The notes below the pieces were generated by a model. It was not told the origin of the DNA. It did not search any database and worked only from the letters and a program-made list of their open reading frames with translations. Shown here piece after piece: positions 321 through 39,947 of a DNA stretch of 64,000 bases (position 1 is its first letter; every line of letters begins with the position of its first letter). The position numbers and the translations under genes are program-made. Location: assembly GCF_019977355.1 (NCBI RefSeq), contig NZ_AP024655.1, forward strand, positions 1,116,001-1,180,000, in the 5' to 3' direction. This DNA is from Arthrobacter sp. NicSoilB8 (GTDB taxonomy: Bacteria > Actinomycetota > Actinomycetes > Actinomycetales > Micrococcaceae).

Positions 321-395
321 GTCCGTTCCCGAACCGTACGAAAATTGTCTTCGTACGCCCCGAATACGGCGGGACTTTTGGCATAGGGAACGGAC
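321..395. repeat. Nested inverted repeats beside the recombinase relic
   Basis: A perfect 10-base inverted repeat (GTCCGTTCCC at 321-330 and GGGAACGGAC at 386-395) encloses a second dyad with 8-base arms (CGTACGAA at 335-342 and TTCGTACG at 350-357). The position immediately upstream of the recombinase relic suits a resolution or inversion site, but it could also be a transcription terminator. No protein-coding frame explains it. Confidence 0.45.
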
Positions 396-618: not shown

Positions 619-3600
619 TCAGGCCTCCTCGAAGCCCTGCTGGTCGAACCTGAGCTGCGTCGCGTTCTCGCGTACTGTGCGCACTTGTTGCTCTGAGAAG
701 CCCGCGGGGGCCATAGCGGTGATTTCGATGCGTACCTCTAGTTGGACTCCCTCAACCGCATCAAGGTGCGCTAGCACCTCCTGCTGCACCTTCGAAAAGT
801 CAGCTGCATACTTCTCAGAGTTTAGGGTCTTTACACCGAAGAATCGTCGTTGTGTCGGCTTTGTCGGGGGCGGCGTCATGGTAGCGCCTCCGGTCCCAGG
901 AGGGGCGGTCGTCGAGCCACCATTGGTCTGGTTTGGGACAGGCGTTTGGCTCTTGCCGATCCCATCGGCGGTTCCGTCGATACATTCACCGGCGCTTTGG
1001 GATTCTTTGGCTCGCTGCTGAGCGGCATGCTCGGGTTTTACGAGAAGAGTGTCGTCGGTAAGATACACCTTCTCGGGCTTCTCCTGCGGTAGCCAGAGGG
1101 CGATGTATCTCTCGGTGGCGTCGTCAAACGCGTCGGCGAGAGCGAAGGCGTCGTTCTGCCAGAGCAGCACATCGGCTGCGCCCAAGACGGCCTTCTCTAG
1201 GACGGAGCGGTCCTTCAGGCGTTTGAGGTAGGGGTGCTGAGCGAACCAGTTCCACAAATCGCCGAAACGAACGTGACCACTTGCCCATGCGCTCGAAAGT
1301 GGACCATCGAGGGCCATCCGAACCAGCTGGGTACCCAGAATTTCGGTGACCTTACCACCTGTCTTTAGGGTCGAGGTAACTCGTTCTGCAAGCGTGCCGC
1401 CCATGTCGCCGATGCGAACGAAATCTATCCGTGGCGCTTCGCCAGGGACTGCGTTGGGCACCAAAGCGGCAGTGTATGTCGCCCGCAGACGAACGTCGAC
1501 GGCGTCGTTGAGCTGATTAGCACGAGTTACGGCCTGATTGCGCTGCTGTGGGCTTAGCTCGAGCTGATCGGCCTCACTGGCGATTGACTTCCATGCCTTG
1601 TACTCCCTGACCACACCCTCGAGTTCGGGATACCGGCCGCGGTCGGGTGCCACCAGGATTATCATGTTTCGCCGCTGTCGCTGAGATGATCCGACTTGGG
1701 TCAGCAATTGCTCGGCGAATTGTCCAGCAGCCGATGCCTCTTTGGTCCACTGGAATCGTGGATGCAACAGGACGAGTCGGAGGGCGTCGGAGTCGGGAAC
1801 GTCGCCGGTATCGGTGGGCGCGGCGTGGATACCAGCAAAGGCACCCTTGTTCTTCCGCGACTCGGCGACGAGCCGGTCTGCGATCTCGGCGTGCACGTCG
1901 GCTTCGCGGTAACCTTGCGATCGGTCGGTCGCCACGCGAGAAACTGAGGCGGCCACGTCGTACCAGTACCGGTCGCCGTCCTCGTAGAAGTATGTCGCTC
2001 GCTGTCCCAGGAGTTCGCGGGCGTCGCCCATGTGACTCATAACGTCACCAGGCACGGCAGCGCCGAGACGCAGGTGCTGAGCGTCGACTCCGCGATGGGC
2101 AGCGCGGAGAGTCGGCACCGTTGCAATGAATACTGTCCGCGCGATGCGGCGGGTGAGCGCGCGGGCTCCGAAAGAAGGGCGCTCCTTATCGATAAACACA
2201 GGCGTCGACCCTTCCCCGTCCACATCCTTGTCCACGATAGGTTTCCAGTTGTCATCTAGGTACTTGGTGATCTCGCTGAACACCTGCGTGTCATTTACTG
2301 GCACTGATCCTGGCGCGATCAGCGGGGCGGTGTCGCCGACGTTCCACAGAGCATTGATCACGACGCTCATCAATCGTAGGACACCACGTGTGCGCTGGAA
2401 CTTCGGAAGCGCCGACCAGTCCTCATAGAGTCTGTCGAAAAGCTCCGGGTGGATTGGGTAAGCGGCCCTGAATCGTGCCTCATATTCTCCGGAGGTGGTC
2501 TCTCGCGGGAAGAAGCCAGTATTTTCCTGGTAATACTTCACGTACTGCTTAGCCACAGCCGCTATGTCGGCCAGGGCCGCGGCATCGGGCTCTTGGAAGA
2601 GGCGTCGGCGGACGATCTCGAACGACTCGATGTTGTTCGCTGGCCGCCAGTCGTCACCGTTGCGGCCGATGACCTGCTGCAGAGTTTCCAGAGCCACGTG
2701 CCCGTTGGGTCCGCCGACCTCAAGGGCCGAGCCGCCTCCGCCGTCGTCTAGGCTGTCAGACGCCGGGACGGAGACGACAAGCATGACACCGGGGGTGGTC
2801 TTGGCCATTTCGGTCAGATGCTGGGCAAATGTGTGCTGGACTGAGAACGATCCGCCAGGCAGATCGTCACGTCCGACGAGTTGGCGGGCGTAGGCGACCC
2901 ACTCGTCGATCAAAATCAAGACCTTCGTTCCGGAGGTGACGGCATCGCGAATGATTGAGTCCAAGGCTTCCCCCGGGTCGGCCGCGTTTGCGTCAGCGTT
3001 GGCTACCCGCTCGAAAGCGGAGCGGCCACCGAGCTGCCATGCGAGCTCGCCCCACAGCGTGCGCACCTGTGTCCCGTCATCCTTGACGCTGGGCTGGCCT
3101 GGAGAGAACCTCGTGCCTACAAGCGTTATCCGCTTCACATCTAGTGAAGCGAGTGGGTCGCCGCCGTTACTTCCGAGGGTGGAGTAGACCAGATCTTGAA
3201 CGCCTTGGGGGAGCGAGGTGGTTTCGACGCCGGAGAATAGGTGATACAGCGCGAGCATCGAGTGCGTCTTGCCCCCGCCGAACTGTGTTTGCAGGTTCAC
3301 AACTGGGCTGGCACTGGCGTCACCCGACAGCCGGCGCAGGGCACGTTCGAGCAGATCCTCCAGACCTGACGTTAAGTACGTGCGGGCGAAGAACTCGCAG
3401 GGGTTGGTGTATTCGGGTGAGGTGCTCAGGTCATTGGCGACGGCATACAGGTCTGCAGCAAACTCCGCGGCACTGAACTGCCCCTTCATCACGTCGGGGT
3501 GTGGAGTGATGACTTCCCGCCAAGGCTTTATCGCCGTCCCAGCCACTGCACCTGGGACATTCACGGTGTTTGTGGCCCTCAGGACGCGATTGCGGGTCTG

Positions 3601-4038
3601 CTTCTCAAATACGTCGCGCTGATGTTCGTAGTGCAGCTCGCCTGCCTTCTTGGCCTGCTCGGCAGCACCCACTGCCTCGAGTAGGCGCTCGATGGTATCG
3701 AGCGTTCGACCGGTGTCGTCACTATCGAACTTTTCGCCGTGGGCCCAGTCGTTCCCTGCCTTCCGGAGCTCCGTCGCGAATGCGCTCTCCACACGGTTGA
3801 GGTCATTGGCGAAGACGCGCCAATCTTCAGTAATAACTCGCAGAAGGAAACGTGGGTCGTCGAGCGAGTGCGTTGGGATCTTGCCATACTTCTGTGCGTC
3901 CCGCGCAGCAATTACATCGACCCAGGCCTTGTGGGTTGACGGCATGGACTTCTGCATACGCTCGTCGACCCAGCCGCGGAGGCCGTCGGCGAGCAAGGCG
4001 AAACCACGACCCACCTTCTCATTATTAGTCAGTGCCAT
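619..4038 (-). CDS. DUF499 AAA+ ATPase with N-terminal Swt1-like HEPN domain
   Basis: This 1139-residue protein has an N-terminal helical domain (about 1-125) resembling Swt1-type HEPN, then a DUF499 P-loop ATPase core. The Walker A is QFGGGKTH at about 252-259, and a Walker B-like ILIDEWVAY follows some 120 residues later. A proline-rich linker and a small C-terminal domain end the protein. In the HEPN domain the usual RNxxAH reads GNDWAH (95-100), so the catalytic arginine seems lost. The start at 4038 is chosen because the upstream methylase stops at 4040 (TGAGATG), giving translational coupling and a GA-rich ribosome site; the open frame reaches further up but only inside the methylase gene. 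DUF499 ATPases recur beside DUF1156 methylases in defence islands, so I infer a nucleic-acid-sensing or motor role. Confidence 0.88.
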   Translation of the reverse strand: MALTNNEKVGRGFALLADGLRGWVDERMQKSMPSTHKAWVDVIAARDAQKYGKIPTHSLDDPRFLLRVITEDWRVFANDLNRVESAFATELRKAGNDWAHGEKFDSDDTGRTLDTIERLLEAVGAAEQAKKAGELHYEHQRDVFEKQTRNRVLRATNTVNVPGAVAGTAIKPWREVITPHPDVMKGQFSAAEFAADLYAVANDLSTSPEYTNPCEFFARTYLTSGLEDLLERALRRLSGDASASPVVNLQTQFGGGKTHSMLALYHLFSGVETTSLPQGVQDLVYSTLGSNGGDPLASLDVKRITLVGTRFSPGQPSVKDDGTQVRTLWGELAWQLGGRSAFERVANADANAADPGEALDSIIRDAVTSGTKVLILIDEWVAYARQLVGRDDLPGGSFSVQHTFAQHLTEMAKTTPGVMLVVSVPASDSLDDGGGGSALEVGGPNGHVALETLQQVIGRNGDDWRPANNIESFEIVRRRLFQEPDAAALADIAAVAKQYVKYYQENTGFFPRETTSGEYEARFRAAYPIHPELFDRLYEDWSALPKFQRTRGVLRLMSVVINALWNVGDTAPLIAPGSVPVNDTQVFSEITKYLDDNWKPIVDKDVDGEGSTPVFIDKERPSFGARALTRRIARTVFIATVPTLRAAHRGVDAQHLRLGAAVPGDVMSHMGDARELLGQRATYFYEDGDRYWYDVAASVSRVATDRSQGYREADVHAEIADRLVAESRKNKGAFAGIHAAPTDTGDVPDSDALRLVLLHPRFQWTKEASAAGQFAEQLLTQVGSSQRQRRNMIILVAPDRGRYPELEGVVREYKAWKSIASEADQLELSPQQRNQAVTRANQLNDAVDVRLRATYTAALVPNAVPGEAPRIDFVRIGDMGGTLAERVTSTLKTGGKVTEILGTQLVRMALDGPLSSAWASGHVRFGDLWNWFAQHPYLKRLKDRSVLEKAVLGAADVLLWQNDAFALADAFDDATERYIALWLPQEKPEKVYLTDDTLLVKPEHAAQQRAKESQSAGECIDGTADGIGKSQTPVPNQTNGGSTTAPPGTGGATMTPPPTKPTQRRFFGVKTLNSEKYAADFSKVQQEVLAHLDAVEGVQLEVRIEITAMAPAGFSEQQVRTVRENATQLRFDQQGFEEA

Positions 4039-4039
4039 C

Positions 4040-6862
4040 TCAGTCCTCGTCCTCATCGAAGTTGAAGGTGTCTTGGATTGCTGGCGGCCGGATGCTCCTG
4101 GCTGTCTGTGAAACATCCGCCCATGCGCCGCCGAGGCCATTGAATAGGCTTGCTGTACCAGCGTCTTTCGACTCCATTAGCTCGTACAGGCGGGTGGCCA
4201 ATCGGTTCACTGCGTCGATGTTGACCTTCGGTCCAGCGCTGGCCATAAGTCGGGCTGCCGCCTCGCGGCCCTCCGCCGCGTAGACTCGGGCGAGGTGACA
4301 GGTGACTTCCCATAGGGAAAGTCTGTCGTCAGTTGCAGGGTTCCATTTCGCATCGAGGTCCTGCGGTTTGACGAGCGAAACCTTGCCGCCTCCCGACAAG
4401 ATCACACCACCGCGCGCAATGCCAGCGACGGAAAGGCCGAGAGGGACTGATAGTGACTCGGCATCGCCGTATGGACGGGTTGACCATCCGTACGATTTGA
4501 ACCAGTCGAGGCAGAAGCGAGTGTCAGGATCGAGGTCCGTGTCTTGCTCGCTCTCGATTGCGTCAAACGTCTGGTTGATCAACGCCAGCGCCGTCTTGAC
4601 CGATACGTGCGTGCCATCGTCCTCGAGTACTCGGCTGTACCGTGAGAAGACAGCCATCCCTGGACCGAGCACGGTTTGACGGAGGTCTGCCGGTGCAATT
4701 GACCCCTGGCGGATCTCGGGCAAAGCGTGTTCGAGCTCCCGATGCAGCGCGGCGAGAAAACCTGACCGATCAGTTGCTGGGGCGCTGATTTCCCGAGGCC
4801 GCAGGGCAAGGACGATTGATGAAGCTAGAGCGTTGGCGCTTTGTCCTCGCATGCGCGACTCCATTTCGGAGCGCACGGGCCATGTTGCGGTAATGGTCCA
4901 GCCCTGCCGCACTAGTCCTTCAAGGAAGGTAGACCAACCGGTACTTGCCACTCCTTCCTTCTCAAGCTCGGCTTGCTTGAAAGCATAGAAGACGGTTATC
5001 GGGTAGTCGGCCGACGCAGAAGCCCGTGCATGGCCAAAGACTCTTTGAAATCCTTCTTCAAAGAACCGCTCAGCGTTTTCGCCTCCTCCGTGCCGGAAGG
5101 GCTCGGCCACCAATTCTTCAGCCTTGGGAACGAGCATGGTGGAAAACAACGAGGGATGGACATCGCGGAGAGTCTTTCTGAGCCAGATGTAAAAAAGATC
5201 CGAAAGATCCGCGTATCCGATGTTGTCGTAGTACGGCGGATCAGTAGCGATGACGAGGTTGTCGTAGCTTCGCTGAGCTGCATCTGCTTGGGTGACTGTG
5301 GCGGGGCCAGAAGCGCGGCTCAATTCCAGGGCTCGCGCAACGGCTTTAATCGCTGCGTCAAACGAACCGCTGCTTGATGCCAGGGTGTTTGCCTCGGAAA
5401 AGTCCCAAGTCCAGGTAACGGACTGGCGGCCATAACTCTGCTGAGATACTTGCCCGTTGCTCTCCCATCGGCAGAGAGAATTGGACCAATCAGCGAGTCT
5501 AGACAGGGCCAGGCCCAGATAGGTAGCAACGACGTCGGCGTAGGCCTCGGCCCCCGAACCACCGTCCGAAAGTCGCTCGCCGGCGTCGAGATCTGCAGCA
5601 AGGGCGTCTTTGACGACCTGCGAACGTATCTCCCTTACCAAGTCGCTGAGGGTCGTGAGTGCTAGCAACTGCCGATCAGTGAAAATGTCCGTCCACTCGG
5701 ACATTCCGTAACCCTGAACGCGGAATCCGAGAGCCGCGGTTGGAAGGTCCCCGGCTGGGCCGTCGGTCGGCCGCGGCACATTCGAATGCTCTGTGTGTTC
5801 CAAGGTAGGTGGTAAATAGATGCGCTTGCGATTTCCTTGCGCGACCACGGCCATGAGTTGTGTGCCAAGGCGCTTGGCCTTGCCCTCTGAACGAATGTGC
5901 TTGAGTTCAACGGCCGTCCCGCAGGCTATGCAGGTGGCACCGGATTGGCCAACTGTGCCTTCTGTGACCCGTGGTGGGGCCGACTTAGGGTCGTGGCCAA
6001 TGCTAAAGGTGACCCGTCTGCCACCGGGCGCACTGGGGTCATCAATGATGGCCGGAATGACGAAGGCTTCCTTGCCCTTCTTCTTGCTCAGCCACCATGT
6101 ACTGGTGAGTGGCATCTGTATTCCGCACGCTGGATTCCAGCATGTAACGAGCCGAACCCAAATCCAGGCAATTGCTGTTGCCGTTTCGCCTGACGGCAAC
6201 TTAGCGGGCGGGTACAGATGCCCGATGCGCTGCGTCGCTCGATCGCGAAGCAGCGCGCCATAGCGGCGCACATCCTCAGCGAGTCCCAGGGCCCGCGGCC
6301 AGCCGCCGAGCGTCGACTCGGCGGCGCCCGGGAAAACCGGCGACGATCCTGAGAAAATTGGTGGTAGTTCGATTAGCGCCTTGTTGATCAGCACAGGGAC
6401 CGGGTTAAGATCGCTGGCGTGGGCATGTAGCCCAAGTCGTTGGGCCTCCAACGGAATCGCGCCACCGCCGGCAAACGGATCCAAGATAGCTGGCGGAGCG
6501 CCGCCAGTCCATCGGCGTATCTCCAAGCGGGCCTCATCGAGGATTGCCTCGTCATACGTGGAATCCCACTGTACAAGGCGAACTAGGAGCTTATGGAGTC
6601 GGCGACGCTCGACCGCGATCTCTTCATCCGTACTAAACAGCTCGGGATGAGAGGAGGGGTCGTCCACGAGTTGTGCGAAAAGGACGGCCCGGGCGGCGGT
6701 TATGGGTCGTCGCGCCCACCAATGGTGGATCTGCTGGGGCTTGCCTACCTTCCTGTCTTTTTCCGCCTTGAGCGCTTCGTTCACCTTCTCCAGCGGCATC
6801 GAAACCTCAATGAGCTTGCGGATGGGTGCTTTGTTTGCGGACGCGGGCAGGGAGAAGTTCAC
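4040..6862 (-). CDS. DUF1156 zinc-ribbon N6-adenine DNA methyltransferase
   Basis: The 940-residue protein begins with the DUF1156 signature (KLIEVSMPLEKVNEA, then HHWWARRPITAARAVLFAQL). The SAM-binding motif DPFAGGG is at 128-134 and the catalytic DPPYYDNIGY motif lies in the second half. Two CxxC-type pairs (around CWNPACG and CIACG) form the zinc ribbon. It probably methylates adenine in host DNA so that partner proteins can tell self from phage DNA. The start is GTG at 6862, supported by the conserved KLIEV segment near the N terminus. It is second in a helicase-methylase-ATPase operon, 90 bases after the helicase stop and one base before the DUF499 start. The target sequence cannot be read from the protein. 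Confidence 0.9.
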   Translation of the reverse strand: MNFSLPASANKAPIRKLIEVSMPLEKVNEALKAEKDRKVGKPQQIHHWWARRPITAARAVLFAQLVDDPSSHPELFSTDEEIAVERRRLHKLLVRLVQWDSTYDEAILDEARLEIRRWTGGAPPAILDPFAGGGAIPLEAQRLGLHAHASDLNPVPVLINKALIELPPIFSGSSPVFPGAAESTLGGWPRALGLAEDVRRYGALLRDRATQRIGHLYPPAKLPSGETATAIAWIWVRLVTCWNPACGIQMPLTSTWWLSKKKGKEAFVIPAIIDDPSAPGGRRVTFSIGHDPKSAPPRVTEGTVGQSGATCIACGTAVELKHIRSEGKAKRLGTQLMAVVAQGNRKRIYLPPTLEHTEHSNVPRPTDGPAGDLPTAALGFRVQGYGMSEWTDIFTDRQLLALTTLSDLVREIRSQVVKDALAADLDAGERLSDGGSGAEAYADVVATYLGLALSRLADWSNSLCRWESNGQVSQQSYGRQSVTWTWDFSEANTLASSSGSFDAAIKAVARALELSRASGPATVTQADAAQRSYDNLVIATDPPYYDNIGYADLSDLFYIWLRKTLRDVHPSLFSTMLVPKAEELVAEPFRHGGGENAERFFEEGFQRVFGHARASASADYPITVFYAFKQAELEKEGVASTGWSTFLEGLVRQGWTITATWPVRSEMESRMRGQSANALASSIVLALRPREISAPATDRSGFLAALHRELEHALPEIRQGSIAPADLRQTVLGPGMAVFSRYSRVLEDDGTHVSVKTALALINQTFDAIESEQDTDLDPDTRFCLDWFKSYGWSTRPYGDAESLSVPLGLSVAGIARGGVILSGGGKVSLVKPQDLDAKWNPATDDRLSLWEVTCHLARVYAAEGREAAARLMASAGPKVNIDAVNRLATRLYELMESKDAGTASLFNGLGGAWADVSQTARSIRPPAIQDTFNFDEDED

Positions 6863-6952
6863 CTGTCAAATATATGGGTAGTTGTTGATAACGACCGCAT
6901 AGAAGCGCGCAGCGTCGGAAAACCGGTCGGATCCTCGGCGAGAGGAGGCGCG

Positions 6953-9900
6953 CTAGTGCGGTGCCACCCCGCGATCCCATTCTCTCTTCCAAGGCCGCCG
7001 TAGATCGTTTGTGTATTCGTCGAGAATGAGGTCGCGGAACGGGTCAACTACGTAACGGATCTCGTCGGCAGAACCGTCGAGACTGCTGGTATCGACTGCC
7101 ACCAGTGCAAGCCGGTACTGGGGATGTGTGTTCTTGCCCGTGATCACCTCACTGAAAGTGACGGTAAAATCCTCTGCGCCCAGCACACGGCCCTTGACTT
7201 CGATGAAGATCGTCGAGCCCTCGGGAGTTATGGATTTAATGTCGAATCCCTTGTTGTTGTGGGCCATCTCGATGGGGAGACGGCCAAGGCTTCGCTCGGC
7301 AGCGAGGACAGCGTCGACGGCTCGACGCTCGGTGAGTGAGGTGTCGAGCGCTCTACCCAAGGCCTCATCGGTTTGCGCCGCCCCTTCATTCGGCCCAGGC
7401 GGCGAAAGCTCAATGGTGCTGAGGGGAAGGACAAGTGCCGCGCTCACAACCCTGGGCGGGCGGACCAGCACTTGCTCCTCAAGGTTCAATTCTGCGAGAC
7501 GGCGATCGAGGCGCACCTCAAGTTCCTGCGCCCGTTGTCGGGCCGTGGCCGGGGAGAGACGGATCCGCCTCCCGGCGGCCTGTTCTTCGGACAGCCGGGA
7601 GGCTTCTGCGTACCAGTGGTTCATCTGGGCTAGTAGTCGCTGTCGAACGAGCCTGCGAGTGCGTTCGATGGACGGTTGGACTCGAGCGGTGACCTCCGCC
7701 CGATGACTGGGCAGACCCTCGCTAATGGCCCACCGCTGTGCGAGCTCTTCGGCTCCGTGGCTGGACCATTGTTGGGACAGGATCGACTCACGGTAGGAAC
7801 GGATCGACACCGCTGCAGCTGTGCCGTTCTCCACAATTTGCATGTCCAGGTAAGGCGCGGTGCTGGCGGGGCCCGTGCTACCGTCCGGCAGCACTTCTAC
7901 GTAGTCAAAGCGGCGGCTCACAGGGCTGCCATTGCCATCGACGAGCTCTTCAAGCAGTTGAACTACGAGTCGCGGACTGGAAGGGGCATTGGATGCGTCG
8001 ATCAAAGTGGCGCCGCAGACCAAGGCATTGCCGAACCTTTCCAAAACGGCTTCCACAAGAGCGTCCATGAGGGGGTGACCAGGGGCGACCAGTTCAGCGG
8101 TTGGTCGCTCTGTGACCTCGATTGCGTCGGGCTCAAAGGTGATCCGCGAGTAGCGCGGCGCGACGGGTCGTGTGCTCGTGCGCAAGAATGCTGGGACGTG
8201 GGTGATCTCGTACCGATCCCGTTCACGTGCGGAGACACGCCCCCCGAATGCGCGCAAGGCTTCGAGGACGAAGACCTGAACGAAGTGTGGCTGAAGGCGG
8301 CGGGCGCGAGCTTCGTCCATCTGCTTGCGAAGGTTCGCTAGCTCCTCGAGGCTGATCTCGGGAGTTGCCAGAGCTCGCTCGCGCATGAGGTCTTCCAGAC
8401 CATCTGCCACCGACGAATCGATGACAAGGTCAAGCCGAGCGCGTACTTCCGGACGCTCCCCGTAACGAATCGCCTGGACGAGCAGCTCCCGCAGTGGCGT
8501 ATCGGCGAAGGCGTTCTCACCAAGGACGTCGAAGACTTTGCCACCGTAAGCTCGGCGCTGCTCTTCGATCTTGTCCAGAAGACGCCGGAACACTTGGCCT
8601 TCGCGCGTCTGGGCAGCCACAAGATTCCACAAACGGCAGACTTCCCTCTGCCCAATGCGGTGGATGCGTCCGAAACGTTGTTCGATCCGGTTTGGATTCC
8701 ACGGCAGGTCGTAGTTCACCATAAGGTGTGCTGCCTGTAGGTTCAGTCCCTCTCCGGCAGCATCCGTAGCAACAAGAATGTGGCATCGTGGATCGTTGGA
8801 GAACCGCGCGCGGATGTTCCTGCGTTCTGCATGAGGGGTCGCCCCCTCGATGACGACAACAGCGTCATCGTCGCCGAGCAGCGTGCGTACGCGGTCACGC
8901 AGGTAGACGAGCGTATCCCGGTGTTCAGTGAAAACGATCAGTTTGTGGGGAATTCCAATGCTGCTCCTGAACCCGTCGTCGCGGGCTTCAAGCACGAGTG
9001 TACGCAGCTCAGTCCACTTGCGATCCTCTCCCGACGTGCGGACCTCCTCGGCAATCTCTTCGAGCCTGGCGAGCGAATTGAGCTCCGCATCGAGCTCTGA
9101 GGCCGTGCGTGCCGCAGTCGCGGCGTCGAGGACTTCTTCTTCGATGTGCTCCAGTTCTTCAGGCGAGAAGTCTTCGTCGGGAACAAACTCGTCATCCGCG
9201 AGAGCCCTCTCGACCGAGAACTCAGGGAAGAAGGGAACGTTCAGAATTCGATCACGATGTGAGCGCAGCCGCGCTGACCTGCGGCGGATGCTTTGGTAGA
9301 TCGCCTCAGGGCTGGAGGCAAGGCGACGCTGGAGGACGGTCAGAGCGAAGCCAACGGTGCGGCGGCGGCCGGTGCCTTCATCCAGTCCGTCGGCACGGTT
9401 CATCTCCGTGCGGACGTACTCGGAGACCTCATCGTACAGTTTGAGTTCAAGGGGGGAGAGCGTGTATTCGACCGTCTCGGCGAATCGTTCGGGAAACAAG
9501 GGCTTCCCTTCGAAGGTGAGCAGGTCCTCCTTGATCATGCGGCGCATCAAACCAGAGGTGTCTGTTGAATGCACGCCCGGACGGTACTGGCCGGCAAATC
9601 GGTCAGGGTCCAGGAGGGCTAGGAATGCCTGGAAGTTTGCCTCGTTGCCCGCGTGCGGAGTCGCTGTCATGAGCAAGAGGTGCCGCGTCACCTTCCCGAG
9701 AGCCTCTCCTAGTTCGTAACGACGGGTGCGCGTCAGCTCGTTTCCGTACCAGCGGGCAGCCATACGGTGAGCTTCATCAACGATCACCAGGTCCCATTCG
9801 GACCTTCCCAAGGCTTCGAGCCACTCCTCGTCGCGGGCAAGCTGGTCCATGCGTGCGATCAGTAAGGGGTTTTTACGGAATGGATCGCCTTCAAGGTCCG

Positions 9901-10462
9901 CCGCAGCCAGCGAACGGGTCAGGATAGTTAGCTCGAGTCCAAACTTCTCTGCGAGCTCGGTTTGCCACTGATCCACGAGGCCGCCGGGCGCGACGATTAG
10001 GCACCGCTGTACATCTCCGCGTAGCAAGAGTTCTTTGAGGTACAGGCCGGCCATAATCGTCTTGCCGGCACCGGGGTCATCCGCGAGTAGGAAACGCAGC
10101 GGCCCCGGCTGGTCGAGAAGTGTGCCGTACACGGCTCGGATTTGGTGGGGTAAAGGGTCGACCGCGCTCGTCTCTACCGCGAGCATCGGGTCCGACAGCC
10201 CAACGTACTTCATCCGCAGGGCTTCAGCAGCCAGTCGGAACTCAGCACCGTCGGCGTCGAACGTCCACCTGTGGGGAGTGGCTTGGGCCTGAAGTCGGGC
10301 GAGGTCCTCCGCAAAAAGGATCTGCTCATCGAGCGCGCCATCTTCATGCCGGACGGTGACTTGAACCGCGTCGGCGCCGATCCGAGCCGCCGAGACAACA
10401 GTAGCGGGCCTAGATCCCAAACCAGTGACACGGATGCCTGGTTGCACTTCGTCGGCTAGCAT
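6953..10462 (-). CDS. SNF2/DEAH helicase with C-terminal DUF3883 domain (DrmD-like)
   Basis: This 1169-residue protein is a superfamily 2 helicase of the SNF2 type. Walker A is ADDPGAGKT (127-135), the DEAH box sits in VIVDEAHRM (about 220), and motif III is TATPHAG. A second RecA domain carries VATDAAGEGLNLQAAHLMVN and the arginine-finger motif QRFGRIHRIGQ. The C terminus, around FDIKSITPEGSTIFIEVKG, matches DUF3883, a PD-(D/E)xK-like fold often fused to defence helicases. It resembles DrmD of class 1 DISARM, yet no drmA, drmB or drmC is in the window. It is the first gene of the operon with the methylase and DUF499 ATPase, and probably translocates on foreign unmethylated DNA. Confidence 0.9.
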   Translation of the reverse strand: MLADEVQPGIRVTGLGSRPATVVSAARIGADAVQVTVRHEDGALDEQILFAEDLARLQAQATPHRWTFDADGAEFRLAAEALRMKYVGLSDPMLAVETSAVDPLPHQIRAVYGTLLDQPGPLRFLLADDPGAGKTIMAGLYLKELLLRGDVQRCLIVAPGGLVDQWQTELAEKFGLELTILTRSLAAADLEGDPFRKNPLLIARMDQLARDEEWLEALGRSEWDLVIVDEAHRMAARWYGNELTRTRRYELGEALGKVTRHLLLMTATPHAGNEANFQAFLALLDPDRFAGQYRPGVHSTDTSGLMRRMIKEDLLTFEGKPLFPERFAETVEYTLSPLELKLYDEVSEYVRTEMNRADGLDEGTGRRRTVGFALTVLQRRLASSPEAIYQSIRRRSARLRSHRDRILNVPFFPEFSVERALADDEFVPDEDFSPEELEHIEEEVLDAATAARTASELDAELNSLARLEEIAEEVRTSGEDRKWTELRTLVLEARDDGFRSSIGIPHKLIVFTEHRDTLVYLRDRVRTLLGDDDAVVVIEGATPHAERRNIRARFSNDPRCHILVATDAAGEGLNLQAAHLMVNYDLPWNPNRIEQRFGRIHRIGQREVCRLWNLVAAQTREGQVFRRLLDKIEEQRRAYGGKVFDVLGENAFADTPLRELLVQAIRYGERPEVRARLDLVIDSSVADGLEDLMRERALATPEISLEELANLRKQMDEARARRLQPHFVQVFVLEALRAFGGRVSARERDRYEITHVPAFLRTSTRPVAPRYSRITFEPDAIEVTERPTAELVAPGHPLMDALVEAVLERFGNALVCGATLIDASNAPSSPRLVVQLLEELVDGNGSPVSRRFDYVEVLPDGSTGPASTAPYLDMQIVENGTAAAVSIRSYRESILSQQWSSHGAEELAQRWAISEGLPSHRAEVTARVQPSIERTRRLVRQRLLAQMNHWYAEASRLSEEQAAGRRIRLSPATARQRAQELEVRLDRRLAELNLEEQVLVRPPRVVSAALVLPLSTIELSPPGPNEGAAQTDEALGRALDTSLTERRAVDAVLAAERSLGRLPIEMAHNNKGFDIKSITPEGSTIFIEVKGRVLGAEDFTVTFSEVITGKNTHPQYRLALVAVDTSSLDGSADEIRYVVDPFRDLILDEYTNDLRRPWKREWDRGVAPH

Positions 10463-10497: not shown

Positions 10498-10755
10498 GTC
10501 ACGAATAATCTATTCGACAACTCGGACATCGCCTCGCAACAAAGACTGCAGAACATCCGAGGGGCCGAGTTCGCGGCGCTCCCTGATGAAGGGAAGAGCG
10601 TAGAGGGAAGCCCCTCCGAACCATGCCGAGTCGACAGAGACCTAGACGCAGCTATCGACAGAGAAGTCAGTTCGGCACCAGCGACGATTCCCCAGCCTCT
10701 CTGCGCGACGAACATCATCGTGCAGGCGAACCATTTGGGTCCCGTCCGACACTAG
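10498..10755 (+). pseudogene. Open frame without a start codon, unknown
   Basis: Between the helicase and the DUF1643 gene the plus strand has an open frame of about 85 codons, reading TNNLFDNSDIASQQRLQNIR near its beginning. The composition is polar and protein-like, but the codon in the start position is GTC, preceded closely by a TGA, so no usable start exists. It may be the decayed N-terminal end of a gene, or chance. It runs convergently into the end of the DUF1643 gene. I recognise no family. Confidence 0.25.
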
Positions 10756-11252
10756 GCCTCTGACGGAGTGCGCATCTGGAGGGCCGCTGCCAAGGCGAGG
10801 GGGAAAGCCAGCCCGGGATAAGCACGATAAGTGTGTCGCTGCCATCGCGAGGGATGACGGGGGGCTCCGCCGACCCACCAAACCGCCAGCCCTCGATTAG
10901 TTATCTGGTCCTCCAGCCACTTCACCTGAGCGAGATGATGCTCCGCGGCAGTGCCTGTGGGTTTGCTGACCCCATACGCCAACAGCACCGCTGAGGCTTC
11001 GTCGAGGGCCCGATTAAGGGAGGGCCGAGCTTCCAGCCAACCTTCAGACGAAACTCCGGCTACGGCAATCCCACCCGTCCGATGCGTTGGGAGGCTGAAT
11101 AGATTGGCCATCTGACAATATTCAAACTGCAGAAGGCCCCTGGCCTGTTCGGCGCGTGCCAGAGTGCGGTGCCCATCAGTTGTAGGTGGGTTGCTACCAA
11201 TCAGCAAAAGGGTTCCTCGGCGTCTGGGTGCTTCGGTATCTCTTGATTGCAT
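10752..11252 (-). CDS. DUF1643-like protein
   Basis: The 166-residue product shows the DUF1643 pattern: a strand with LLLIGSNPPTTDG (family: MLNPSxAD), a helical stretch, FEYCQMANLFSLPTH (family: xxVxNLFAxR), then ADxxAxLL-like and VWWVGGAP strands and a final HPLY-like HPSRWQRHTYRAYPG. DUF1643 proteins occur in phages, mobile islands and next to nucleic-acid enzymes; their reaction is not firmly known. The gene lies upstream of the helicase on the same strand, separated by about 290 bases, so it may or may not be in the same transcript. A terminator at 11281-11311 isolates it from the gene further upstream. Confidence 0.7.
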   Translation of the reverse strand: MQSRDTEAPRRRGTLLLIGSNPPTTDGHRTLARAEQARGLLQFEYCQMANLFSLPTHRTGGIAVAGVSSEGWLEARPSLNRALDEASAVLLAYGVSKPTGTAAEHHLAQVKWLEDQITNRGLAVWWVGGAPRHPSRWQRHTYRAYPGLAFPLALAAALQMRTPSEA

Positions 11253-18759: not shown

Positions 18760-19623
18760 CTAGGCGGCTTTGAGGCCGCTATTGATTGTCTCAAACTCGA
18801 CCGGTGTTAGCCGTCCGAGGCGCCGCTGGCGGCGTTTCCGGTGGTACGTTTTCTCGATCCACGTCACGATGGCCAGGCGCAGGTCCGCCCTTGTGGACCA
18901 TCGCTGGCTGTCCAGCACGTTCTTCTGCAGGAGCGAGAAGAAGGATTCCATGGCGGCGTTATCGGCGCACGCGCCGACCCGTCCCATCGATCCTGTGAGC
19001 CGGTTGCCCTTCAACGTCCGCACGAAGGCGTTTGAGCGGAATTGGGAGCCGCGGTCACTATGGATCACGGTTCCCTCCGGCTCCCGGAGCGCTATTGCGT
19101 TGTGCAGGGCCGAGACTGCCAGGGACGCCTTCATCCGGGAATCGATGGAGTAACCCACGATCCGGTTGGAGTAGACGTCTTTGATGGCGCACAGGTAGAG
19201 CTTGCCCTCGTCGGTCCGGTGCTCGGTGATGTCCGTGAGCCACAGCCGATCCGGTGCCGTTGCTGTGAAGTCCCGCCGGACGTGGTCATCGTGCACGGGC
19301 GGGCCGGCCTTGCGGGTCAGGCCGCGCTTCTTGGCGAAGACAGACCAGATCCGCTGGCTGCTGCACAGCCGTGCGACCCGGTTCTCTCCGGCGCTGAAAC
19401 CCTGGTCTTCGAGCTCGTCGGCGATAAACCGGTACCCGAACCCCGGATCGTCCCGGTGGACGTCCACCGCCGCGTTGATCAGGTGGGCATCTGACCAGTC
19501 GCGCTCGGAGACGGGACTTCTCTTCCATTCGTAGAAGGCCTGTTTGGAGAAACCCAGCACCCGGCAGGCCACCGCGACGGGAATTCCGTCCGCGGCAAGG
19601 TCAAGGACCAGCGGAAACTTCAT
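18760..19623 (-). CDS. IS3-family transposase OrfB (DDE integrase)
   Basis: The 287-residue protein has the HTH_21 region (YRFIADELEDQGFSAGENRV) and an rve integrase core. The acidic triad is visible: D in RLWLTDITEH, D in VIHSDRGSQF and E in NAAMESFFSLLQKN, with DD(about 35)E spacing. Its ATG overlaps the OrfA stop by four bases (ATGA). Intact, so the element may be active. Confidence 0.95.
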   Translation of the reverse strand: MKFPLVLDLAADGIPVAVACRVLGFSKQAFYEWKRSPVSERDWSDAHLINAAVDVHRDDPGFGYRFIADELEDQGFSAGENRVARLCSSQRIWSVFAKKRGLTRKAGPPVHDDHVRRDFTATAPDRLWLTDITEHRTDEGKLYLCAIKDVYSNRIVGYSIDSRMKASLAVSALHNAIALREPEGTVIHSDRGSQFRSNAFVRTLKGNRLTGSMGRVGACADNAAMESFFSLLQKNVLDSQRWSTRADLRLAIVTWIEKTYHRKRRQRRLGRLTPVEFETINSGLKAA

Positions 19624-20483: not shown

Positions 20484-20765
20484 GCCGTCGGCGTCGCCTC
20501 GGAGTAATTGGGCCACCAGCTGATAAGCCGTCGATGCGGGGAACGATGCGCACTAACTGCAATAGGATGGGCTTGATCGGCTGTTTCGGAGGGCCTGACC
20601 TCCGACCCCGCCGCCTATTGATGCGTAAACGACGTGTCTCGTGCCCGGAGCGGGCACAGGGTGAGCGACTGTGCTCGAAGGGATCCGCAAATCGGTTCCA
20701 TCGGCAACCGATTTGAGGGGCGAAACATTGGCACCGCCCGGAGACGCGAAGGGGGACGAGCGGCG

Positions 20766-22691
20766 ATGGAGCCGATGAGCGACGAGATTGACCCGCTTTG
20801 GTGGGAGGGTGTGCTGACCGCGGCACCGCTGGATGGCCCGTATGAACTGCCAGAGTTGTTGTCGGCGCATCTCGACCGGGCGGCTGCGGATCCGGCGGTC
20901 ATCGGGCTTCAGGAGCTGGTCCTGCAGGCGCTGGCGACGGTCTCGTCGGCGATGTTGAATACCGATGATTGGTTGGAGCCGTTTACACCCGCGATGCAGT
21001 TCGGTGGTAAGCGAACGTTAGTGCCGGCGGACTTAGATGAGGACCAGGTGGCGTTGCTGGCCCGTATCGCTCCGCTGATAAAGCGTGACGATTTGCGGGC
21101 TCGGGTTGCTGACGTCGCATGGTTCTACGGGGACCGGTCTAATGTCGCGATGCTGGACCGAGCCATCGACGCGTACCGGGCGGCGCCGCTAACAGGCGAT
21201 GCGTGGTTCAGGGTGGGCAAGGACGCGTGGGTTCGGGCGTTCGAGCTTGCAATGCGGCGCGGACCGGACGGCCGCGCCCGAATACAGGAAATGTCGGACG
21301 CGCTCAAGGCTCAGATCTTGGCCGGCGAGGTGTCGGACAACTTCAGGACCGTGGGGTTCGCGGAGACGTTACGTCGGCATTGCCGGGTCGACGCGGCCGG
21401 GCGCGTTGAGGTGCGCGAGGCGCTATTCGGGCTTGCGGCACAGGCCTCATCGATAAACCCTCGCCTGTCACGTCATCTGGAGCGTGAGGCGCTCGCGTGG
21501 CTGGGTGGTTCGGATGTGGCGGCGGCGAACGCTGCGACTGAGCGCGTAGCGCGGACCTACATCGAAGAGGCGGATGCGCGCATCCAGGCGGACTCGAAGG
21601 AGGGTGTGCTCGTCGAAGGCCACTTCGTGGAGAAGGCGATTGCGGTCCTGCGAACCATCCCGCGCTCCTATCGCGTTGAGAACGGTCTCGTCGAGCTCCT
21701 TGACGAACTCCGCGGCCGGCTACGTGATAGCCGGGAGTCGTCGATGGAGCAGATGATGCGCATTGAGTCGGACCCAGTCGATCTGACAGATGCCGTGTCC
21801 TATGCGCGGTCGCAAGTCTCGGGTCACACGGACAAGTTCGACGCGCTCGCTGCTTTCGCGATGCTTGCACCGCCCATGGACGAATCCAGTACGCGAGAGA
21901 ACGCCGCCAAGATGCTGGAAGGCACCATCAGCCACATCTTCGCGTCCTCGACGTTTTCCTCCGACTTCCGGAAGGTTGCCGCCAGTCCAGGGTCTTCGGG
22001 TCAGGACGACGAGAACGCGATTTGGGCCAATATGGTCCGCACGGTGTTCTTTCACTCCCAGATGGTCGGAAAGGGCGTCATCCAGCCTGCACAGGAGGTT
22101 TTGACGACCGAGCACCGGTTCAGTCGGCAATACATGGTGTCGCTGTGCATGGAGTCGCCTACGGTGCCGGAGGGGCACGAGACGTTGTGGGGCGACGGGC
22201 TGGCGCTCGGCTTGGGCGGCAACTACGGTGCTGCGGTCTCTGTTCTGATACCTCAATTGGAACAGGTCGTGCGGGTCATGTTGAAGCGGCACAACGTGGA
22301 TACGCTGTTCGTCGATGAACTCGGCGTGGAGAGCGAGAAGAGTTTGAACGCGCTTCTTGACATGACCGATACTGAGAAAATCTTCGGTGCGGGGATGGTC
22401 ATGGAGATGAAGGCGATGCTGGTCGTCCAAGGCGGCCCGAACCTGCGCAACAACGTTGCGCACGGCCTTCTTGACGACAACTCGGCGTGGAGCTACTCGG
22501 CGCTGTACATGTGGTGGTTCTGCCTGCGACTCGTGACGTGGCCGGTCACCAAGAGTATGAACAGCGCGCGGACGCAGGCTGCGAAGCCTGACGAAGACTC
22601 CGTGATGGCGGCCCGCGGAGCGGACACCGATCCGACAACAGAGACCGCAGAAGATGCCGCGCCGGGGACCTCGACGGAAGGTTCGCGTTAA
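20766..22691 (+). CDS. DUF4209 protein with C-terminal HEPN-type RxxxxH motif
   Basis: The 641-residue protein is almost all helical. Its C-terminal part (LEQVVRVMLKRHNVDTLFVD ... NLRNNVAHGLLDDNSAWSYS) matches DUF4209, where R561-N-N-V-A-H566 is the HEPN ribonuclease motif. Such domains usually act as RNases in toxin-antitoxin or abortive-infection systems. ATG 20766 (MEPMSDEIDPLWWEGV) is chosen because the sequence before it is not protein-like; ATG 20775 is also possible, with GGAG just upstream. It stands alone between degraded sequences, with no partner gene on the same strand for 760 bases. A stand-alone antiphage role is inferred. Confidence 0.8.
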   Translation: MEPMSDEIDPLWWEGVLTAAPLDGPYELPELLSAHLDRAAADPAVIGLQELVLQALATVSSAMLNTDDWLEPFTPAMQFGGKRTLVPADLDEDQVALLARIAPLIKRDDLRARVADVAWFYGDRSNVAMLDRAIDAYRAAPLTGDAWFRVGKDAWVRAFELAMRRGPDGRARIQEMSDALKAQILAGEVSDNFRTVGFAETLRRHCRVDAAGRVEVREALFGLAAQASSINPRLSRHLEREALAWLGGSDVAAANAATERVARTYIEEADARIQADSKEGVLVEGHFVEKAIAVLRTIPRSYRVENGLVELLDELRGRLRDSRESSMEQMMRIESDPVDLTDAVSYARSQVSGHTDKFDALAAFAMLAPPMDESSTRENAAKMLEGTISHIFASSTFSSDFRKVAASPGSSGQDDENAIWANMVRTVFFHSQMVGKGVIQPAQEVLTTEHRFSRQYMVSLCMESPTVPEGHETLWGDGLALGLGGNYGAAVSVLIPQLEQVVRVMLKRHNVDTLFVDELGVESEKSLNALLDMTDTEKIFGAGMVMEMKAMLVVQGGPNLRNNVAHGLLDDNSAWSYSALYMWWFCLRLVTWPVTKSMNSARTQAAKPDEDSVMAARGADTDPTTETAEDAAPGTSTEGSR

Positions 22692-24336: not shown

Positions 24337-25023
24337 TCAGTTGCATGGCAATGAGATGTGGACGAGGGCTCGCTCGCCGTCCGTGATGGTTTGCGGCATT
24401 ACAGCCCGAGCGGCAGGCAAGCCATCAGTCGGCAGCGTCGTCTTCCCGCGGTAAAAGCTCCGGAGAACAAACTCGATGAAGTGGTAGGGCGTGATGGCCG
24501 CTGAGGCTGCGATCCGGCAGTTGGGATATTGGCCGAGTGTTAAGTGGCTGACGGGGTGCAAGACTTCCTTCACGACGTCTTCTGAGTCGTCGTAGTCGAA
24601 TCGCAATGGAACAGTCACCGCGCGTTTGTCGATCACATCTCCGTACGGCTCATCGTGAAGATACAGCTCTGGGTCTTCCTGGAACGTGACGAGCGTCGGT
24701 GAGGGGAGAAAACGCAACTCGCTCTTCGCGAGAGTGTCTGCATCCCTAAATAGGAACCTAAACTGCACGAATGCCCCGTCGAGAAACTTTAGGTCGTAGG
24801 CGCGAGACTCCGCTAGTCGAGCATAGAGCTCGGAATACGGAATCTTCTCCTGCATTCGAGGCGCATCCGCCCAGTAGTTAGCCTCCAAGGCAACGTAGCC
24901 GTTCATGCCCGGGCGGCGCGCAACCAAGTTCTGGTCGTCCACAAGTCCCTTACCCACCAAAAAGACCGTCACGTCCTCTATTTCCTTCTTGAGGAGTTCG
25001 ACAGCAGGTTTCCGCTTACTCAT
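24337..25023 (-). CDS. DUF2290 protein, 228 aa
   Basis: The sequence matches DUF2290: an N-terminal helix, a beta-rich middle (FVQFRFLFRDADTLAKSELR, FLPSPTLV), then DEPYGDVIDKRAVTVPLRFD and HPVSHLTLGQYPNCRIAASA with the TPYHFIEFVLRSFY helix. The GTG or ATG further up is less likely than ATG 25023, which overlaps the stop of the upstream UvrD-like helicase by 8 bases (ATGAGTAA), giving translational coupling. DUF2290 proteins often pair with DEAD/UvrD helicases in variable regions; their biochemical role is unknown. I infer a two-gene nucleic-acid-related, probably antiviral, module. Confidence 0.8.
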   Translation of the reverse strand: MSKRKPAVELLKKEIEDVTVFLVGKGLVDDQNLVARRPGMNGYVALEANYWADAPRMQEKIPYSELYARLAESRAYDLKFLDGAFVQFRFLFRDADTLAKSELRFLPSPTLVTFQEDPELYLHDEPYGDVIDKRAVTVPLRFDYDDSEDVVKEVLHPVSHLTLGQYPNCRIAASAAITPYHFIEFVLRSFYRGKTTLPTDGLPAARAVMPQTITDGERALVHISLPCN

Positions 25024-27181
25024 GACGTAGAAGTGCCTCAAGCCGCGCCAACGTTGCTGGATCGAGATCCTGCGGATAGAACGAGCCGGACTCCAGGTCT
25101 TCTACGAGCCTTTCCAGCGAAGATCCGTGCCCGCGAAGCCGCTTCTCCACCTCGGGTGGCACCTCCCTGTGCAGAATCTGCATCGTCTTACGCTCGTCCT
25201 CGGTCGGGTACACAAAGTCCAAAGTGAAGCCCGAAGCTTCGATTTTCTTGTATTCATCTAGAAGGTCCTGCATCTCGGGTCCAACGCCGGTGACTCGTAC
25301 CCAACCTTTGCTTCGGGTGATGGCGGTGAAAAGGCGGTTACGCGTACGTGCCTGGTTCTGCTTCGTGGAAAAGTTTTCGTGCGCATTCGCGACGTAGATC
25401 ATTGCAGCTTCGTTGCCTTTAGCGCGATAGATCCCGGTGAAAGTTACGCTTCGTTCGTCTTGTCTGAAGAAGATGTCTGCGCCAACATCTACGCCGGCGA
25501 GGTGGCTCTGAATGCTCCGTTCCATTAGCGCGCGACGCACGGGACCAAGGTTATTTCGAGTCGTGAGAGGGTTTGGATTGATTACGATAATGTCGTTGGC
25601 AACTAGTTCATCTTGATTGAGATTTTGTTCAATCTCATTTGCAATCCATTCATTCTGTTCATTGACAGTGTCGAAAACTCTGAAAGTCAGAAGGTCCCCG
25701 GGAGACGAGTGCTCTTCTAAGAAGCGGGGGCTAGATTCGGCGTCACGCTCAAGTCTGACGTGTTGACCGTCCCCGAGTGTGCCCTCTCTCACCCGGTAAC
25801 CAACATCTGTCCAAAGATCCTTCTGCTCAAAGATCTGGACGATGCCCGTGGTCGCAGGAGGAGAGGGATCCTTGTAGATGCCGAAACCCAGGGCATGTGC
25901 GGTTACCAAAACAGGCCTGGAGTTGCGGTAGCACTTCTCCAGAATGATGTCGCGTCGCCCGCCTTCCGCGCCCCCGAAGTCCACGCGCGGGCGCCCTGCG
26001 CTTGTGCTGCCAAATATTTCCTCCGCCGGGGGAAGGCCTGCGCCGTTAAGGGTTTGCAATTCGTCGTAGGCATAGACCAGTCGCTTCTTCTCACCCAGCA
26101 TCTCGTAACACATCCGCAGGAAGGCAGGCGGGAGATCTTGGGCTTCATCAACGAGGATCGCGTCGTATAGCGGCTTGGAACTTTCGGCTTCGCCTAGGGC
26201 CAGTTCGCAGACTCCTCCTAATGCGTCCTGTGCTCCATACATGCCCTTACCCGAACCGAAATCGTAGTATGTGGCTCCGTTCTCGACGCAAAACCGGTGA
26301 TACAGCCCTTCACGATTGCCGCCGCCGGAAGCTCCCCACGCTTGGATTATGTCCACCATGGACCAGTCCGGTTCGTCGCCTGTCTGGTCTATTGTGAAAT
26401 TGTTTATGAATCGCCGGAACTGGTCCCGTAGAGACCTCGTGTTGAAGGTCACCGCGATCCGCCAATCGGGGTGCTGGGCGTGCAGGTATGCCGCTTTGAG
26501 GGCCAAAACGACCGTCTTGCCGGAACCCGCCAGTCCTCTGATCCGTTGCACGTCCTCTGCCGTCTCGATGACCGCATGACTCTGCTGGGCGTCCAGAGTG
26601 GCAATTGAGTCTTCCAAGCGCTTTAGTATGGCTCCGCGGGAGTCCTCGCGACGGACAGGCCGGACAGCGCCGGAGCGACGAATGCTAGACATGCTCTGGA
26701 GTGCCGAAAGGGCGCGCTCATGAATCTCCGGTTCAAAGTCCGCGCTGACCATGCGGGAAAGGGCCTCGTGGATGGTTGCGGCGTTGGCGACTGGGTACTC
26801 AAGATCCTCAGGCACTCTGGACATCCCTGGCGCGAACGTCAGGGTGTGGACCTGCACCTTTAGCCGGCGTCGATCTACAAGTGACGGATGAGATTTGAGT
26901 CGGACTTCGAGACGGGTGTAGACGTCATCCTGACGAGTCTGGTAGTCGCCAAGGTCGGCACCTTCGACTATGTCGAACGCTACGACTCCAGTGCGCGGGG
27001 ACACGTAAACGGCATCAAGAGGACCCCTGTCCTCAGACACCGTCGTAACTGGGTAGCCGATGGTTAGATGGCCGCCTGCGGGAGCAGTTTCGGATTCGAA
27101 AAACCGTGCCAACGCTTCGCTCGCTGCGGGCTTTCCATTCGTACCGCGGCTGACCACATTGGGGAGTGACTCCTGAGACAT
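25016..27181 (-). CDS. UvrD-type superfamily 1 helicase with degenerate nuclease-like N terminus
   Basis: This 721-residue protein has Walker A GLAGSGKT (216-223) with a Q motif upstream, Walker B LVDEAQD (343-349), the motif III-like YAYDELQTLNG, and C-terminal SF1 motifs (TGIYRAKGNEAAMIYVANAH, RNRLFTAITRSKGWVRVTG). The N-terminal 200 residues contain LDAVYVSPRTGVVAFDIVEG (55-74), which resembles a NERD/PD-(D/E)xK strand but lacks the ExK pair, so nuclease activity is doubtful. It forms an operon with the DUF2290 gene, overlapping by 8 bases. ATP-driven translocation on nucleic acid is near certain from family; defence is inferred from the partner and neighbourhood. Confidence 0.85.
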   Translation of the reverse strand: MSQESLPNVVSRGTNGKPAASEALARFFESETAPAGGHLTIGYPVTTVSEDRGPLDAVYVSPRTGVVAFDIVEGADLGDYQTRQDDVYTRLEVRLKSHPSLVDRRRLKVQVHTLTFAPGMSRVPEDLEYPVANAATIHEALSRMVSADFEPEIHERALSALQSMSSIRRSGAVRPVRREDSRGAILKRLEDSIATLDAQQSHAVIETAEDVQRIRGLAGSGKTVVLALKAAYLHAQHPDWRIAVTFNTRSLRDQFRRFINNFTIDQTGDEPDWSMVDIIQAWGASGGGNREGLYHRFCVENGATYYDFGSGKGMYGAQDALGGVCELALGEAESSKPLYDAILVDEAQDLPPAFLRMCYEMLGEKKRLVYAYDELQTLNGAGLPPAEEIFGSTSAGRPRVDFGGAEGGRRDIILEKCYRNSRPVLVTAHALGFGIYKDPSPPATTGIVQIFEQKDLWTDVGYRVREGTLGDGQHVRLERDAESSPRFLEEHSSPGDLLTFRVFDTVNEQNEWIANEIEQNLNQDELVANDIIVINPNPLTTRNNLGPVRRALMERSIQSHLAGVDVGADIFFRQDERSVTFTGIYRAKGNEAAMIYVANAHENFSTKQNQARTRNRLFTAITRSKGWVRVTGVGPEMQDLLDEYKKIEASGFTLDFVYPTEDERKTMQILHREVPPEVEKRLRGHGSSLERLVEDLESGSFYPQDLDPATLARLEALLRHE

Positions 27182-37690: not shown

Positions 37691-38932
37691 ATGAAAAAAC
37701 TTGTTATAGCCGGCTTCGGAGCGGTGGTCCTGGCTCTTGGTGCGGTCACCGCAGCTGTCCCGGGCAACGCGGCAACGGAGCCGCAGCAGATCACGGGTCA
37801 GATCCTCGTCAAGTTCCGCGATAACGGGGCGGCAGCGGACGTCCTACGCCAGCATGGCCTCAGTGAAGGCCCGGGTGTCGGCAGCACCGGCGCTCACGTG
37901 GTCAATGTCCCGGCCGGCAAGGAATCCCAACTCATCGACGCTCTGAGCCGCAACCCGGCCGTCGAATACGCCGAGCCGGACGAGACGGTCACTGCCGCGA
38001 CGGATGACCAGTATTTCCCCCGCCAGTACGCCCTGCAGAACACGGGCCAATCGTTTACGAACACGGCCGGCACGCTGACCGTGGCCGGGTCCACCCCGGA
38101 CGCCGATGTGGACGCCGTCGAAGCCTGGACCGTCACCACCGGGAGCGGCATCAAGGTTGCTGTTCTCGATTCCGGTGTTGCCAGCGACAACCCCGACATC
38201 AACCCGAAGGTTGCACTGCGGGCCAACTTCAGCACTGCGGCAACCAACGAAGACAATTACGGCCACGGTACCCACGTGGCCGGCCTCGTCGGCGCCAGCG
38301 CCAACAACACGATCGGTGTCGCCGGCGTGTGCCCGGGCTGCTCGGTCCTGGCCGGCAAGGTGCTCAACGACAGCGGTGTCGGATCCAGCTCGAGCCTTGC
38401 CAACGGCATCGACTGGGCTGTCACGAACGGTGCGAAGGTGATCAACATGAGCCTGGGAGTGCGGGCGTCACGCACCCTCGAGACGGCCATCAACAACGCC
38501 TGGAGCAAGGGCGTGGTGCTCGTTGCCGCAGCAGGCAACGGAGGCAACCAGAGCAAGATCTACCCCGGCGCGTACCTCAACGTCATTGCCGTCGCCGCCA
38601 CCGACAACGCCGACGCCAAGGCATCGTTCTCCACCTACGGGGCCAGCTGGGTGGACATCGCAGCACCCGGCGTCAATGTCTACTCAACCTTCCCCAACCA
38701 CCCCTTTGTCCTCGGAACACAGAACAACCGCTCCTTCGGTTACGACGTCGGCAACGGGACCTCCATGTCCTCCGCCGTCGTCGCCGCAACGGCCGCGCTT
38801 GCCTGGAGCTCCCACCCCGGTGCGACGAACACGTCAGTGCGTGCAAACGTCGAATCGACCGCCGACAAGATTTCCGGCACCGGCACCTTCTGGGCGAACG
38901 GCCGCGTGAATGCAGACAAAGCCGTTCGCTAA
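37691..38932 (+). CDS. Secreted S8 subtilisin-like serine protease, 413 aa
   Basis: A signal peptide (KKLVIAGFGAVVLALGAVTA, cleavage likely after PGNAA) is followed by an inhibitor-I9-like prodomain (ILVKFRDNG...VNVPAGKE...VEYAEPD) and the peptidase domain. The catalytic triad is D160 (VAVLDSGV), H192 (YGHGTHVAG) and S358 (GNGTSMSSAVV); the oxyanion Asn is in AAAGNGGN. It resembles thermitase/fervidolysin-type enzymes and is probably exported to digest extracellular protein. ATG 37691 is chosen; ATG 37682 is possible. It converges with the GntR gene with 2 bases between the stops. Confidence 0.92.
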   Translation: MKKLVIAGFGAVVLALGAVTAAVPGNAATEPQQITGQILVKFRDNGAAADVLRQHGLSEGPGVGSTGAHVVNVPAGKESQLIDALSRNPAVEYAEPDETVTAATDDQYFPRQYALQNTGQSFTNTAGTLTVAGSTPDADVDAVEAWTVTTGSGIKVAVLDSGVASDNPDINPKVALRANFSTAATNEDNYGHGTHVAGLVGASANNTIGVAGVCPGCSVLAGKVLNDSGVGSSSSLANGIDWAVTNGAKVINMSLGVRASRTLETAINNAWSKGVVLVAAAGNGGNQSKIYPGAYLNVIAVAATDNADAKASFSTYGASWVDIAAPGVNVYSTFPNHPFVLGTQNNRSFGYDVGNGTSMSSAVVAATAALAWSSHPGATNTSVRANVESTADKISGTGTFWANGRVNADKAVR

Positions 38933-38934
38933 GG

Positions 38935-39711: not shown

Positions 39712-39768
39712 GTTTTGCCTCGCTTGCGTTTGTTCGGGGATCTCAGCGTACCGCGGGGTGTGACGTGT

Positions 39769-39779
39769 TTGTTGGACAA
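39769..39779. promoter_or_regulatory. GntR operator upstream of the GntR gene
   Basis: TTGTTGGACAA fits TnGTnnnACnA exactly and shares both outer halves with TTGTATAACAA at 31339-31349. It lies 58 bases before the GTG start of the regulator. Confidence 0.6.
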
Positions 39780-39947
39780 GGCCCACTCGCGGGAAAGGCC
39801 TCGAACCGAAGCGGCGGGGGTGGCCGGCTCCTAAAGCTCCGAAGGTTCGCTTTCCCCAAAGTGCGGGACACTGGAAGTACCGACCACGAAAGCGGGCCCC
39901 CTGATGAGTCTCCAGCACGATGCCGACGGCGTCACCCGGCCGAGCCC

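Follow-up and report, generated by a model that had tools for sequence, protein, structure and literature searches.

A predicted complete Hma defence operon in Arthrobacter sp. NicSoilB8 with a HEPN domain that lacks the catalytic arginine

The window analyzed here is a stretch of 64,000 nucleotides from the genome of Arthrobacter sp. NicSoilB8 (contig NZ_AP024655.1, positions 1,116,001 to 1,180,000 of the forward strand). From position 10462 to 619 of the window, the list of open reading frames (ORFs) shows three large adjacent genes on the minus strand, in the transcription order hmaA, hmaB, hmaC, which were assigned to the defence system Hma as described below.

6953..10462, minus strand: hmaA, SNF2-family helicase with a C-terminal DUF3883/NOV_C PD-(D/E)XK nuclease domain, 1169 amino acids (ORF, domain and PADLOC profiles)
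4040..6862, minus strand: hmaB, DUF1156 amino-methyltransferase, GTG start, 940 amino acids (ORF, domain and PADLOC profiles)
4036..4042, minus strand: TGAGATG stop/start junction of hmaB and hmaC, the hmaC ATG directly following the hmaB stop (sequence reading)
619..4038, minus strand: hmaC, HEPN_Swt1-DUF499 AAA+ ATPase, 1139 amino acids (ORF, domain and PADLOC profiles, database form)

All three ORFs lie where a first-pass annotation of this DNA had placed three adjacent minus-strand genes, and the coupled TGAGATG junction that it described was seen at 4042-4036. In the mechanical ORF list the third frame spans 619-4140 (1173 amino acids). For hmaC the ATG at 4038 is the most likely start, and the resulting 1139 amino acids equal the length of the protein database entry (P0001); the longer start at 4140 is unneeded. 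Pfam-type profiles identified SNF2-rel_dom, Helicase_C and NOV_C (DUF3883) in HmaA, DUF1156 together with weak methyltransferase matches below cut-off in HmaB, and HEPN_Swt1 and DUF499 in HmaC, in agreement with the earlier reading of the genes as an SNF2-DUF3883 helicase, a DUF1156 methylase and a HEPN-DUF499 ATPase. The GC content is 0.59-0.61 across the operon, and values between 0.61 and 0.73 occur over the window's right-hand half.

The PADLOC search proposed in the first-pass annotation identified the trio as HmaA (1274 bits, residues 4-1143), HmaB (985 bits) and HmaC (813 bits) with nearly full-length profile coverage; the HmaC profile covers residues 203-1172 of the 1173-residue ORF, that is, the part downstream of the HEPN domain. 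Scores of 813-1274 bits over near-whole profiles, together with the A-B-C order on one strand in all 60 three-gene loci (the Arthrobacter locus included; here and below, counts across loci are among the loci listed), place the operon far beyond chance. Because of these matches and the negative results with DISARM profiles given below, the trio is read as Hma and not as DISARM. By gene content the operon is a complete copy of this named candidate anti-phage defence system. The locus thus belongs to an already known family, the one odd feature of this copy being a HEPN domain without its key catalytic residue.

Hma (helicase-methylase-ATPase) received its name in 2021, when 1,638 instances of the candidate system were counted across 26 phyla (Payne 2021, PMC8565338). 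The Arthrobacter copy resembles it in matching all three profiles nearly end to end and in gene order, and differs in that the HEPN domain of HmaC is without the catalytic Arg. The same system is the Type-1 DUF499-centred BREX-related (BR) family of Rakesh & Krishnan 2026 (PMC12839542), found in 2446 taxa and compared there with type-3 BREX. The Arthrobacter locus shares its HEPN-DUF499 ATPase, DUF1156 N6-methyltransferase and SNF2 helicase with an active C-terminal PD-(D/E)XK domain; the HEPN domain is proposed in that account to be a suicide RNase, whereas the HEPN motif of the Arthrobacter copy is degenerate. A HEPN-DUF499/SNF2-DUF3883 restriction-type operon was sketched in 2013 (Anantharaman et al., PMC3710099), and a paper of 2020 (PMC7641849) mentions a related arrangement. 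The Ava_2192-type HEPN-AAA+(DUF499) restriction-modification system of the 2013 paper likewise has HEPN-DUF499 in an operon with SNF2-DUF3883 and restriction-modification components; its HEPN domain is marked as active there, whereas the Arthrobacter copy lacks the Arg.

The altered domain lies at the start of HmaC, with the following features.

3667..4008, minus strand: HEPN_Swt1 domain (profile 91.6 bits, cut-off 27.5; modest structural support)
3754..3756, minus strand: Gly95 codon at the catalytic-Arg position of the HEPN Rx4H motif (sequence, alignments)
1573..3105, minus strand: DUF499 region as matched by Pfam (domain profile)
Residues 254-258 and 376-380, minus strand: ATPase-part motifs GGGKT and LIDEW (alignment)

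In Arthrobacter HmaC, Gly95 replaces the catalytic Arg of Rx4H while H100 is kept, and the Rx4-6H motif expected of HEPN ribonucleases is thereby absent. Of 72 diverse HmaC, 68 retain Arg95, whereas among the 118 full-length homologs nearest to the Arthrobacter protein 52 have another residue there, with six changes of state on a FastTree tree of the 118. H100 is invariant in both sets, as is N96 in the 118 close homologs. Those of the 118 that lack the Arg show no sign of decay in the HEPN domain, its constraint resembling that in R-bearing relatives. The 118 are the 120 nearest listed minus P0057 and P0068, short HmaC matches without HEPN. In the diverse set, L091, L093 and L094 were dropped as duplicates of L028, L039 and L045, and L097 as too distant; L027 and L076, in which the HEPN part is missing, were left out of the HEPN count together with 5'-open HmaC frames, and longer stretches took the place of the short loci L001 and L005-L011. 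No sequence occurs twice among the 72 HEPN rows, although some are close relatives. HmaC matches the HEPN_Swt1 profile and fold, the assignment resting on the Pfam match since plain Foldseek with the HEPN model returned nothing at E<=0.001 and yeast Swt1 ranked second, behind a designed protein, in a further structure comparison. A sequence search of the PDB with HmaC gave a single chance match (E 0.9).

In HmaA and HmaB, the catalytic motifs are intact.

9593..10093, minus strand: SNF2 N-terminal helicase lobe of HmaA, with Walker A GAGKT and DEAH (domain profile, motif alignment)
8651..8950, minus strand: helicase C-terminal lobe of HmaA, with motif VI QRFGRIHRIGQ (domain profile, motif alignment)
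7088..7330, minus strand: NOV_C/DUF3883 domain of HmaA, with PD-(D/E)XK residues D1074, E1088 and K1090 (domain profile, alignment, AlphaFold model)
6590..6799, minus strand: DUF1156 domain of HmaB (domain profile)
5231..5242, minus strand: DPPY catalytic motif of HmaB, N6-adenine/N4-cytosine type (sequence and motif reading)

The nuclease D, E and K are unchanged in Arthrobacter HmaA and in all 60 HmaA aligned (L014, L020, L034, L035 and L072, incomplete or split, were left out of the alignment). The AlphaFold model of this domain resembles the Hjc and PvuII nucleases, and the C-terminal domain of HmaA is likely to have a PD-(D/E)XK nuclease fold. In the Type-1 BR family the helicase is fused to an active C-terminal PD-(D/E)XK domain in 79% of taxa (PMC12839542), and Arthrobacter HmaA shows this fusion with intact catalytic residues. 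The helicase part of HmaA matches SNF2 proteins such as RapA in a sequence search of the PDB, where no relative of HmaB was found at E<=0.1. HmaB is predicted to be an amino-methyltransferase, with adenine as its most likely target.

Taken together, the complete Hma is quite probably a three-protein ATP-dependent machine of restriction-modification type. HmaB would methylate a sequence in host DNA and so mark it as self, while HmaC, an ORC/BrxC-like AAA+ ATPase, would form a platform for sensing and assembly. HmaA would be loaded on DNA that is unmodified or in some other way foreign, translocate by means of its SNF2 motor and cut with its C-terminal PD-(D/E)XK domain. Since the HEPN domain of HmaC is without the catalytic Arg, the nuclease of HmaA would be the main effector. 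In the lineage of Arthrobacter HmaC, the HEPN domain is probably maintained as a non-catalytic module instead of the proposed suicide RNase, and may serve in binding, dimerization or regulation. The Hma/BR-1 defence system is widespread and little studied, and copies that combine a degenerate HEPN with an intact HmaA nuclease separate its two proposed effectors. They offer a natural comparison for which of the two protects and also bear on whether HEPN does more than cut RNA.

Several points weigh against this interpretation. The changes on the FastTree tree concern the 118 nearest homologs only, and their counts do not tell loss from regain. The constraint test uses pairwise identities that depend on one another, and its two sets differ in mean core identity (0.600 vs 0.649). 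HmaB was named a 5-methylcytosine (m5C) enzyme by Payne 2021 (PMC8565338), with which the DPPY motif does not fit. Finally, HEPN activity might in principle survive through another Arg, position 92 holding R or K in every one of the 52 homologs without R95.

This last point leads to an alternative that we regard as unlikely, namely that the HEPN domain of HmaC is still an active RNase, acting through R92 or another residue as an abortive last-resort effector. The published model treats HEPN as a suicide RNase (PMC12839542), and both the invariance of H100 and N96 and the undiminished constraint on the domain would suit such a role, as would the R at position 92 in 114 of the 118 close homologs. 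However, R92 is found in only 52 of the 72 diverse HmaC, as opposed to 68 of 72 for R95, and R92-x7-H falls outside the Rx4-6H spacing. A compensating Arg was sought in the 118 homologs: among those without R95, position 92 is R in 50 of 52 and K in 2, so that R92 is hardly commoner there than among those that retain R95 (64 of 66).

We consider it improbable that Hma protects without DNA cleavage in a BREX-like manner, by replication block or methylation sensing, with the PD-(D/E)XK domain only binding DNA. Kinship with BREX is argued in PMC12839542, and DUF499 proteins of EVE-linked systems are suggested to interfere with replication (PMC7641849), but the nuclease residues are invariant in the aligned HmaA, and the experimental study cited states in its title that the nuclease domain confers defence. 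BREX identity itself was rejected, PglZ not being with the locus: none was found among selected neighbour ORFs scanned on both sides, and the one partial match in the genome (27.2 bits, cut-off 25; positions 113-173 of 179) is ~0.7 Mb off.

The first-pass annotation had proposed a minimal or little-studied DISARM-related system; the little-studied defence system stands, as Hma, whereas the connection with DISARM through a DrmD-type helicase does not. HmaA scores at best 365 bits against DrmD in PADLOC, as compared with 1274 for the HmaA profile, and reaches 369.3 bits of the 610 set as cut-off for NCBI DrmD and 169.9 of 950 for DrmD_b. The annotation's observation that drmA, drmB and drmC are absent was borne out among the selected ORFs scanned beside the operon, and genome-wide none of the three stands out. 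DrmB_fam gave no match in the whole genome, the best genome match to the DrmA profile was HmaA itself (229.6 bits; two others ~24 bits), and the four matches to DrmC_I across the genome were all below cut-off (at most 42.2 of 133 bits). PF09369 (MZB), which we take to be part of DrmB, has one match in the genome, ~3 Mb off in an 810-residue frame, and also matches 8 of 14 control genomes. Nor were full DISARM genes, which the annotation had considered might lie just outside the window, found among selected ORFs scanned right of the operon and ten ORFs to its left. DISARM class 1 (DrmD and DrmMI) shares with the Arthrobacter locus a related SNF2 helicase and a methylase, but that locus has a DUF499 ATPase, to our knowledge not a DISARM component, and with its helicase under the DrmD cut-off and no DrmA, DrmB or DrmC gene standing out, DISARM identity was rejected and a reduced or divergent DISARM system appears extremely unlikely.

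HmaB was present in 8 of 149 whole genomes searched, the source genome included, one of the eight (G051, the source of L097) being distant with 32% identity. A scan of named genomes gave at least 79 loci in Actinomycetes, Acidobacteria, Chloroflexi, Cyanobacteria, Proteobacteria, Lachnospiraceae, Methanothrix and others. Among the 60 three-gene loci, a few of which have a split or contig-cut HmaA, the A-B gap between open frames is at least 400 bases in 24 and the B-C gap in 19, while 25 have neither, as in the Arthrobacter locus. Gaps of this size leave room for inserted genes, and Hma clusters with such insertions are known from the literature under the name HEC systems (PMC12111858, PMC11411939). 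On a Pyrinomonadaceae contig cut 1.7 kb upstream of HmaB, the proteins encoded after HmaB-HmaC (L048:8904-11953) match Aga_TIR-PNTD1-PNTD2 (450 bits) and pAgo_I (664 bits).

Genes for a type IV methyl-directed restriction enzyme (L002:15147-18341, C1:1111147-1114341; PLDc-helicase-DUF3427, 1098 bits) and for PDC-S11 (L002:12891-14060, 484 bits) are located to the left of the window, beside an operon with a DNA methylase of its own. Collinearity with the relative G010 ends at C1:1108839, just before these two genes, and Hma therefore probably sits in a variable defence block. The comparison covers this one relative and ~45 kb beyond the end of collinearity, and the right end was not found; a gene at 38329-39834 of the window proved of no use as a marker for the right-hand side. 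No tRNA genes were found in L002, L108 or L109.

Upstream of hmaA and on the same strand is a small gene (10752-11252, minus strand) with a DUF1643 match of 19.8 bits (cut-off 22.5), and a GC-rich inverted repeat followed by T is seen at ~11310-11275. To the right of the operon, an IS3-type transposase ORF with rve integrase core and HTH_21 matches is located at 18760-19623 (minus strand). A DUF7380-DUF4209 protein (20634-22691) and a UvrD-like helicase ORF (25016-27181) lie in the same stretch of lower GC content and are possibly further cargo of the island.
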